From positions 1 to 37,410 of the forward strand of contig CAMDJV010000035.1 in NCBI GenBank assembly GCA_945901085.1: a stretch of 37,410 nucleotides of DNA. Reading direction: 5' to 3'. The notes beneath the pieces are model-generated. The model saw only the letters and a program-made list of their open reading frames with translations. It had not been told where the DNA came from and ran no database searches. This DNA is from Rhodovarius crocodyli (GTDB lineage Bacteria > Pseudomonadota > Alphaproteobacteria > Acetobacterales > Acetobacteraceae). Below are positions 27,797 through 37,410 of the stretch, piece after piece. The position numbers and the translations under genes are program-made. Positions within the stretch are counted from its first letter, which is position 1. Each line of letters begins with the position of its first letter.

Positions 27797-28522
27797 ATGT
27801 CCCGCTTCTTCAAAAACTTCCGCCAGACCCCACCCGGCATCCAGGCCCGCCTCACCCGCCCCGTCCCCTGGCGGCCCATGGATGATGAGGAGTGGGAGGC
27901 GGTGATGCATTTCATGGTCTTCGTCCATCCCGGCCCGGGCCGCCCCACCATCCACGGCGCCCGCCGCGCGCTCGATGCCTGTTTCCACGCCGCCTGTTTC
28001 CCCGGCCCGTGGAAAAAACTCCCCGCCGCCTTCGGCAAACCCGATTCCATCCACCGCCTCTTCCGCCGCTGGACCCATGCCGGCCTGTGGAAAATGATGC
28101 TGAAATTCGTCGCCAAGGAGCGCCCGGGCCTGCAGGCCATCCAATACTGGGTCTGCCGTGCCTTCCGCCGCGCCTGGCGCATCCAGGGCCTGGCCGGCCT
28201 CAGCCTTGCCCGCCGCCTGGGGCTGGATAGCGCACTCCGCGCCCCCAGTTGGTTGCTGCCCGATGCGGATTTGTCCGCTTTCCTGCATTCCAGGATTTTG
28301 CCCCGCGCTGAGGCCGGCCTGCTCAACCCCAACCCCCGCATCCAGCGCCAATGGGTTGATCTGCTGCTGCGCCTGCACAGCCAATGCATCGGCCGCCGCA
28401 CCCTACCCCGCCACCTTCTTCTCACCCATCAGGAAACCCTCTGGCCCGAGCGCTTCGGCCCCGTCCTTGCCCCGCCCTCGCCGCCCTGGCATGCACCCGC
28501 CATGGTAGCTTTCCCGTCATGA
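27797..28522 (+). CDS. Transposase-derived protein (IS5-type N-terminal domain) coupled to prfA
   Basis: A 241-residue basic protein. Residues about 28-105 resemble the N-terminal DNA-binding domain of IS5-family transposases (DUF4096): a MDDEEWEAV opening, [28 protein letters not shown] and a [13 protein letters not shown] segment. The DDE catalytic domain is absent; instead comes an unfamiliar helical Arg/Leu-rich region ending VAFPS. It looks like a working host gene, not debris: AGGAG lies seven bases before the ATG, codon use and GC match neighbours, the frame is intact, and its stop overlaps the prfA ATG (ATGA). A DNA- or RNA-binding role near translation termination genes is conjecture. 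Confidence 0.72.
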
Positions 28523-33849: not shown

Positions 33850-34050
33850 GTTTGTTGCGTGATGCGAGGGTTACCGCGTGATGGTCAAAAACCGGAACAA
33901 GAACTCTGGTTAGTGTGATCGGACGGGGTCGTTAGCGCTCGACTCGACCTTGCATTTGCATTCGCCAAAGGGGGGGCTGCCCAAGCCTTGCCCCATCAAT
34001 TTGGACGATTACGCACTTCGCAAACTGGAGGATCGTATGTGCAGAAAATC
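33850..34050. other. Left part of low-GC island, no gene seen
   Basis: From repeat E3 to the TTGACA box. Composition shifts to lower GC. Only short meaningless ORFs are present. I see no recognisable element apart from small inverted repeats such as TTGCATTTGCA-like sequence at about 33950. Confidence 0.4.
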
Positions 34051-34081
34051 TTGACACTTGGTTGGTGCTACGGCATATATT
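34051..34081 (+). promoter_or_regulatory. Sigma-70-like promoter before the permuted tRNA
   Basis: A perfect TTGACA -35 box (34051-34056) is followed by TATATT (34076-34081, 19-base spacing) or CATATA (34074-34079, 17-base spacing). Either would start transcription at about 34086-34090, just before the tRNA-like sequence. This is the best promoter match in the window. Confidence 0.6.
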
Positions 34082-34087
34082 TCTCAT

Positions 34088-34229
34088 GCGATGAAAGTCG
34101 CACGCTAAGCGCTTGGTCGTGGGTTCGATCCCCATCCGGTCCATTTGGGGGCTGGTAGCTCAGCGGTAGAGCAGGCGTCTGATTTGAGGCAAAGCGCCAG
34201 TCCTCTTTGAGGACTGGCGTCTCTTTTCG
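34088..34229 (+). ncRNA. Circularly permuted tRNA-like gene: 3' half, 5-base linker, 5' half, terminator
   Basis: After a GCGAT-GAAA-GTCGC hairpin (34088-34101) comes a tRNA 3' half: anticodon 3' strand GCGCT (34109-34113), variable loop TGGTC, T stem GTGGG/CCCAT with loop TTCGATC, acceptor strand CCGGTCC (34136-34142), discriminator A (34143). A linker TTTGG follows. The 5' half is: acceptor GGGCTGG (34149-34155), TA, D stem GCTC/GAGC with loop AGCGGTA, A26, anticodon 5' strand GGCGT (34174-34178), then CT. The halves pair in acceptor (7 of 7, two G-U) and anticodon stems (5 of 5, two G-U). Canonical bases T8, A14, G18G19, A21, T33, G53, T54T55C56, A58, C61 are kept. No CCA is encoded. Joining CTGAT to AA would give anticodon GAU (Ile). 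It may be functional, or a relic of rearranged tandem tRNAs. Confidence 0.6.
34195..34227 (+). terminator. Intrinsic terminator after the permuted tRNA
   Basis: An 11-bp perfect stem CGCCAGTCCTC/GAGGACTGGCG with loop TTT (34195-34219) and U-rich tail TCTCTTTT. It is the only textbook Rho-independent terminator I found in the window. Its CGCC arm could alternatively pair with GGCG of the anticodon 5' strand (34174-34177), which would compete with terminator formation. Confidence 0.85.
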
Positions 34230-34684
34230 TTCTGGAAAGGCCGTCGTTTGCTTCGCGCTTCACCGGCTGGCGCAGAATCAACTTTAGCCTCTGGGCGAAA
34301 TTTGCCCCACTCCCGTCCGCGCCATCTGGATTGCCGTGTCTCGTAACCGGTCAGCTTGGGAGGTTTTCTCTGCTCCGGCCATGGGCCTGTATCCCTCTCG
34401 CTAAGATTTTGCGGGGAATGTTCCACTGAAATATGTAAGTCCCAATTCGAATTTACCTTAAGTCCAGCGCTTCTATCGAAATTGATTTGGCCGTTATCGA
34501 TGCATAGAGATATATTTGTAGAATCAGCCAAGCCGATAGATACGATCATTCTGTCCATTTTTATATTCTGCCAATTTCCATAATGGACTGAACTCTTTTC
34601 GCCATTAGCAATTGTGCTTCTTATTATTTCCGTAACCGAGATGGGTCTCCATAGTATTTAACGAATGGGCCGATACTATTTATT
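34230..34684 (-). other. Low-GC orphan segment with a coding-like fragment
   Basis: AT-rich compared with the rest of the window, especially 34420-34684. On the minus strand one frame is open from just after TAA near 34653 to 34160, containing EIIRSTIANGEKSSVHYGNW and, further on, GLADSTNISLCIDNGQINFD. This reads like real protein, with AT-rich codons, but the first ATG (34558) is internal and the 3' part becomes low-quality and runs into the terminator and tRNA half. It is probably the truncated remnant of a foreign gene. I do not recognise the family. Confidence 0.4.
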
Positions 34685-37231: not shown

Positions 37232-37261
37232 CCAGGCGGTGCGCCTGTGGTAGGGTTGGCT

Positions 37262-37410
37262 CATGCGACGGTGACCCGAAAGGGTTGAAACGGGAACGCG
37301 TGGATGGGGGCAACCCCAGTGCCGCGGCTGCCCCCGCAACTGTAGGCGGAGATCTCGCCCCTGATGCCATTGGTGCCACCGGCACTGAGAAGGCGGGGCG
37401 AGCGGGGATT
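37262..37410 (+). ncRNA. Cobalamin riboswitch (cut by window edge)
   Basis: Conserved blocks appear in the correct order: GACGGTGACCCGAAAGGG, GTTGAAACGGGAA, the B12-box CCCCGCAACTGT (about 37338-37349), the GCCATTGG segment (about 37372) and CACTGAGAAGGCGGG (about 37383). It binds a cobalamin and reduces expression of B12 synthesis or uptake genes. The controlled gene, on the plus strand, lies beyond the window. The expression platform is not visible. Confidence 0.92.

Follow-up and report, generated by a model that had tools for sequence, protein, structure and literature searches.

What does a bacterial genome encode where the 3′ half of a canonical tRNA lies in front of its 5′ half? Such an element occupies part of an intergenic region of Rhodovarius crocodyli, within the window analysed here, that is, the whole stretch of 37,410 nucleotides of contig CAMDJV010000035.1, and had originally been predicted to be a circularly permuted tRNA gene with its own promoter and terminator. 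Comparison of its sequence with known and newly found RNAs leads us to regard it as probably the gene for an orphan tRNA mimic that has the architecture of the bacterial Y RNA YrlA and is independent of Ro.

Organization of the locus

The permuted core lies at 34109–34178 on the + strand, and direct reading of the sequence confirmed that the 3′ half precedes the 5′ half at the predicted coordinates. The 3′ half (34109–34143) consists of the anticodon 3′ strand, the variable region, the T arm with a TTCGATC loop, the acceptor 3′ strand and an A, and the 5′ half (34149–34180) of the acceptor 5′ strand, TA, the D arm, the anticodon 5′ strand and CT. The acceptor strands are connected by a link of 6 nt, A plus TTTGG (34143–34148), without CCA, of which TTTGG (34144–34148) loops the acceptor stem closed. 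According to our pair list, the acceptor strands CCGGTCC (34136–34142) and GGGCTGG (34149–34155) pair 7/7 and the anticodon strands GCGCT (34109–34113) and GGCGT (34174–34178) pair 5/5, each with two G-U pairs as had been predicted; the T stem (34119–34123 with 34131–34135, 5/5, one G-U) and the D stem (34158–34161 with 34169–34172, 4/4) are complete as well. AA and CT of the anticodon loop are retained at the open ends of the core. They permit a junction CTGAT|AA, which would yield the anticodon GAU, without fixing it, and no single anticodon is defined.

Upstream of the core, a promoter-like sequence (34051–34081, +) is formed by TTGACA (34051–34056), the sole + strand copy in the intergenic stretch of 983 bases, a 17-nt spacer and CATATA (34074–34079), with TATATT (34076–34081), 19 nt from TTGACA, as an alternative −10 box. 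The TTGACA part of the predicted promoter is therefore present but its −10 box is poor: both candidates deviate from the consensus and the promoter is absent from the list of our consensus scan. The predicted U-tailed terminator was recovered by the terminator scan as a hairpin at 34194–34220 (+) followed by CTCTTTTCGT, with 12 pairs instead of 11, where 1.3 such sites are expected by chance across the intergenic stretch. With both ends taken from promoter and terminator, the predicted transcript would comprise ~141 nt (34086–34226, +) and would start with a hairpin at 34087–34102 (pair probabilities 0.72–0.96).

The intergenic stretch between the upstream gene and the FTHFS stop (34757) is AT-rich, with a GC content per 200 bases down to 0.375 at 34401–34600 compared with 0.67 for the window. 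Antisense frames across the T arm (33932–34350, −) encode GIEPTT, GDRTHD and WGSNPRPSA, which we take to be strings familiar from doubtful protein annotations. The longer antisense open reading frame of the intergenic stretch, searched for remains of phages or transposons, had no match in Pfam or PHROG. Elsewhere in the window, an open reading frame at 27797–28519 (+) weakly resembles a PHROG transposase (E 1.1e-5), its match to a family of unknown function being stronger (3.4e-15), and a cobalamin riboswitch aptamer (37252–37410, +, 63.2 bits) is truncated by the end of the window.

Predicted fold and comparison with tRNA genes

The computed fold of the predicted transcript has a minimum free energy of −61.4 kcal/mol; for 34087–34230 the z-score against shuffled sequences was −2.58, and 3 of 200 shuffles were equally low. 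The ensemble favours the 5′ hairpin, the acceptor and T stems and the terminator (pair probabilities 0.67–1.0) and disfavours the anticodon (0.12–0.18) and D (0.02) stems, both of which are missing from the minimum-energy fold. This is weak evidence against these stems, since a tRNA-Lys of the same genome, the one gene folded as a yardstick, did not form a cloverleaf in the same computation either.

ARAGORN detected no tRNA gene in the window, and the tRNA model RF00005 gave 19.6 bits, under its cut-off of 29. With R3, a covariance model made without the window sequence, the element reached 68.4 bits (E 4.9e-18). Like tRNA genes in tandem hold the same permuted arrangement between them, and neighbouring tRNA genes nearly match the score of the window (66.9 bits for tandem tRNA-Arg genes), so that R3 alone cannot separate the element from adjacent tRNA genes. 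Unlike such tandems, the window contains no whole tRNA, and no remnant of outer halves is seen in the flanks of the element. The permuted two-piece tmRNA and the window element are both permuted and acceptor-bearing. The element has a canonical D arm and scored 11.3 bits with RF04321 (cut-off 47, E 8.6) and 12.9 bits with RF01850 (cut-off 84).

Similarity to the bacterial Y RNA YrlA

Among the Rfam matches only that to YrlA (RF02553) is informative; it spans the whole element (34095–34203, +) and lies below the curated gathering cut-off (36.5 bits, E 3.9e-6, gathering 69). Y RNAs in bacteria are described in PMC8394870 as a tether that joins a Ro-binding stem to a tRNA-like effector domain. 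In YrlA, according to the same source, a large stem of both ends binds Rsr, a relative of Ro60. The tRNA-like domain is similar to the D, T and acceptor arms; it is a target of the modification enzymes DusA and TruB and is bound by PNPase. Competition with an anticodon nuclease is a role proposed for YrlA in PMC7790460.

The permuted order of arms in the tRNA-like domain of YrlA can be read off the Rfam alignment, and the window RNA has the same T arm, acceptor hairpin and D arm inside the anticodon-stem helix; Rfam alignment, pair list and R3 agree on the presence of this domain. The predicted length of ~141 nt also falls inside the 90–150 nt that PMC8394870 gives for YrlA. Unlike YrlA, the window RNA has no recognizable large stem of 5′ and 3′ ends, scores under the gathering threshold and possesses its own 5′ hairpin and terminator, and no rsr was found in the genome. 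The absence of rsr and rtcB matches from the draft is, like the anatomy of the element, its pairing potential and the existence of related RNAs, an observation: a TROVE/Rsr search of this genome (a 96.8% complete draft in 91 contigs) returned nothing at E ≤ 1, and RtcB had no match either.

Relatives within the family

Matches to the YrlA model were obtained in 59 of 299 sampled genomes of the same family at E ≤ 0.05, none of them above the cut-off. ARAGORN called tRNA genes in 22 of 29 YrlA-matched loci and none in the other 7. What look like full permuted cores without a tRNA call were present in the genomes G107 (two), G091 (two), G139 and G154 and in the window. Four further places matched by YrlA, in G312 (L062), G313 (L066), G088 (L070) and G278 (L099), likewise had no tRNA call but reached only 22–30 bits with R3 and are left out of the count of permuted RNAs. 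R1, a covariance model from six tRNA-free permuted cores, added G025. It matched 373 of 397 family genomes, and among 30 retrieved loci tRNA genes occupied the place in 25 and were absent in 5; in 60 further regions examined, 56 had a tRNA somewhere. Within the retrieved places that were checked, tRNA-free permuted RNAs occur in at least six genomes of the family. A BLAST search over 60 relatives matched 14 genomes, the own genome included, and each of the 13 loci checked had a tRNA call. A class-wide pattern search of 385 genomes that required a TTGAC box matched five genomes, with a permuted RNA in the window genome and in G543 and none by the scanner in the other three. BRock scored 29.4 bits with R1.

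Of 397 family genomes, no more than 5 gave a TROVE match. In four of these (G107, G091, G139, G025) a TROVE/Rsr match lies 0.4–1.6 kb from a permuted RNA, and RtcB was found in all four, on the same contig for five of six rsr-linked places. In the fifth, G412, two loci of ~3 kb that were examined held no permuted RNA. The YrlA cut-off of 69 is also missed by five rsr-linked places (33.2–46.4 bits), and the sub-gathering score of the window is thus not decisive. Two minor observations concern the TROVE genomes. A match to the nematode sRNA family RF01656 at its cut-off (38.0 bits) sits between two permuted RNAs in a TROVE genome (L063, 573–646, −) and may represent one more Y-type RNA. An isolated 3′ half of a tRNA with GCCA (L184, G107:C37, 301–384, −) gave 35 bits with R3 and follows a stretch that presumably resembles the end of RNase P RNA.

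At the six rsr-linked places, continuous helices of 8–12 bp occur in comparable positions, and both of their strands vary from genome to genome. Taken singly, these helices were equalled by 4–145 of 500 shuffles and few places were significant; p values for the duplex ranged from 0 to 0.06, with 0.07 for G107 and 0.265 for G139 in one test variant. For an Rsr-binding outer stem in the window p values of 0.69, 0.725 and 0.775 were obtained, and its longest continuous outer helix of 6 bp was equalled by 414 of 500 shuffles; the p values for G154 were 0.254, 0.23 and 0.65. The relatives also drew attention to a UUAUC/UACUUC-like motif 5′ of the core, which is only a hint and no established mark of Y RNAs. 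A loose pattern for it matched 5 of 6 rsr-linked places and 23 of 44 candidates of the collections described below, but neither the window nor G154.

Conservation of stem pairing, a further check named along with the original prediction, was observed together with covariation in the related RNAs. Six sequences (the window and five others) had 96% of cells paired and double changes in 10 of 21 pairs, and 20 sequences without the window had 95% paired and double changes in 16 of 21 pairs, a level reached by none of 500 shuffles. This support is partly circular, because 13 of the 20 sequences were chosen by scanner or model matches that reward pairing; the other seven (G107, G091, G139, G154, G025, RcXuper and Alone3) came from Rfam, R1 or BLAST.

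A second locus in the family, L052 of G154, resembles the window in its layout. It has a TTGACT box at a similar distance (~64 nt from box to core by hand count, compared with 58 nt in the window), a possible leader hairpin recognized by eye, a permuted core with 7/7 acceptor and 5/5 anticodon pairs and, at similar spacing (~8 nt instead of 15 nt), a U-tailed terminator. Sequence and neighbourhood (HTH and HipA-like genes) differ from those of the window, and the link comprises 13 nt and begins with GCCA, in contrast to 6 nt without CCA. G154 is 99% complete and has neither a TROVE nor an RtcB match. A layout common to two unrelated places is the best sign of a real orphan form; this form rests on two isolated cases, and G154 shares the architecture of the window, not its sequence or locus.

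Assessment of alternative explanations

The main rival to an orphan mimic is a non-functional relic, which we consider unlikely. Such a relic could be a Y RNA gene after loss of Ro stem and partner, or the inner part of a tandem tRNA duplicate whose outer halves were deleted, with the promoter-like box and terminator inherited or due to chance. Tandem copies of like tRNA genes contain the same core and score almost as high, the AT-rich surroundings suggest acquired DNA, and the GCCA after the acceptor strand of G154 corresponds to a tRNA 3′ end. A normal full tRNA at this locus in related strains, one of the checks proposed along with the original prediction, was looked for in the syntenic loci of the genus: none of seven holds a copy of the element or a tRNA, and the intergenic stretch is unmatched there; an eighth congener without an FTHFS match lies outside this comparison. 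The missing copies agree with a relic, but outer halves have left no trace in the flanks of the window or G154, where the best alignments were equalled by 190–710 of 1000 shuffles. A remnant of a deletion between two different tRNA genes was judged unlikely as well: among 870 ordered pairs of crossed halves, drawn from 30 of the 39 tRNA genes of the window genome, 14 had a 7/7 acceptor stem and only 2 were full in both stems. The recurrence of box, leader hairpin and terminator in G154 further argues against a relic. Compared with 2033 tRNA genes, the core most resembles a tRNA-Lys(UUU) (60/69 identical; 28/32 in the 5′ half and 32/37 in the 3′ half with two preceding A), a best of 2033 and hence a selected match that does not prove descent. 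All nine differences are transitions, and by hand comparison the seven in stems all keep pairing, one pair by a double change from A-U to G-C, which speaks against a relic. The six other permuted cores are identical to their nearest tRNA in 54–58 of 67–71 positions, and the window core appears somewhat more tRNA-like.

We judge it improbable that the element is a genuine Y RNA with a Ro protein that is too divergent or absent from the draft and with a Ro stem formed by sequences that escape recognition. The draft is incomplete and has no 16S rRNA match, the Rfam alignment to YrlA runs from end to end including the outer stem, though with weak pairs there, and the outer-stem tests are blunt, because G139 (0.265) and candidates of the collections also miss 0.1. 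On the other hand, the TROVE search was negative in this genome as well as in the nearly complete G154, the linked genomes have rsr near the RNA, and the p values for the outer stem of the window are high. Least credible, and highly improbable, is a working circularly permuted tRNA. Its ~141-nt transcript would be cut and rejoined in the anticodon loop by some ligase, RNase P and RNase Z would remove the link, and a junction CTGAT|AA would provide the anticodon GAU. For algae and Thermofilum, PMC3978253 describes permuted tRNA genes as 3′ half, short intervening sequence and 5′ half, opened in the anticodon loop, and the window has the same order and opening. Its permuted halves allow cloverleaf pairing in all stems, CT and AA are kept at the open ends, and the 39 tRNA genes of the draft do not include a canonical tRNA-Ile(GAU). 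However, tRNA-Ala(UGC), tRNA-Asn, tRNA-Gly(GCC) and 16S rRNA are missing together with tRNA-Ile(GAU), as expected if rRNA operons and repeats were unassembled, which is probably the case. In contrast to the algal and Thermofilum genes, the element has no RtcB match as a joining enzyme in its genome, no defined anticodon and Y-like relatives, which offer a simpler account; CCA is not encoded, and the best tRNA-Ile match (57/69) falls behind tRNA-Lys. With the YrlA layout and the rsr-linked relatives, these points leave the permuted tRNA gene of the original prediction unsupported; among the alternatives of that prediction the tRNA-like regulator fits best.

If the element encodes an orphan mimic of YrlA architecture, its RNA would be open in the anticodon loop, its acceptor stem would be closed by the short loop and both ends would be protected by the 5′ hairpin and the terminator. 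It would stay uncharged and stable and would presumably serve as a decoy or scaffold. Without Ro, a role as Ro tether would be impossible for the window RNA. The mimic would probably bind proteins that recognize the tRNA elbow or the acceptor, T and D arms, analogous to TruB, DusA and PNPase for YrlA. Transcription, ends, fold in the cell, partners and function of this RNA are what we infer from the locus and its relatives. The window and G154 could, tentatively, be two members of a class of permuted tRNA mimics that stand alone and do without Ro; such a class is possible and likelier than a working permuted tRNA. In the literature surveyed on bacterial Y RNA, YrlA and permuted tRNA, outside of which several primary Y RNA papers lie, no paper had a Ro-free permuted tRNA mimic in its title or in the opening of its abstract, a weak negative. 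A free-standing mimic with its own promoter and end hairpins and without Ro would imply that the mimic is useful alone, and the window RNA would then be a simple RNA for asking what the mimic binds.

Permuted RNAs in phages and viral contigs

In a BLAST search of phage sequences, the whole element matched 9 records, none covering 80%, and neither the element nor the intergenic stretch matched any plasmid record. The core by itself matched 152 phage records. Six of these were examined: Alone3, RcXuper and pSt2308 hold a permuted RNA, and in each of the other three the match coincides with a normal tRNA call. TROVE proteins together with tRNA-like partners have been described for some phages (PMC7824862). 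In the Streptomyces phages Alone3 and pSt2308 the permuted RNA precedes an annotated Ro-like gene by ~0.5 kb. Rhodobacter phage RcXuper (OP186293, L562, ~3.6–4.3 kb) has an unannotated permuted RNA with a 10-bp outer helix (equalled by 7/500 shuffles). This RNA is followed by three more CATACTTC stretches, and together they look like a phage Y RNA array; it lies upstream of a gene for a 720-aa protein without Pfam match and of an RlaP-like RNA repair gene.

Candidates were collected by pattern scans, three on viral contigs and one on genome contigs, followed by R1 and an ARAGORN filter; 132 of 348 model matches were tested, plus eight places from the own family. The 132 places yielded at least 44 distinct permuted candidates, and 88 were dropped for tRNA overlap or as repeats. 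Among the matches listed, 39 of the 44 are in viral contigs (L205–L489), and the five non-viral ones are in L513 (two), L525 (two) and L534. The outer stem had p < 0.1 in 29 of the 43 candidates tested and missed this level in 14. From this survey, permuted tRNA-like RNAs appear to be common in viral contigs, at least some of them without annotation in phage records, and the Rfam cut-off for YrlA appears to miss rsr-linked members. L423, L425 (forward match) and L513 (5078–5146) are likely false positives, two of which are still counted within the 44. In several viral candidates (L237, L337, L341 and L366) the acceptor strand is still followed by GCCA, which would fit excision from tandem tRNA copies.
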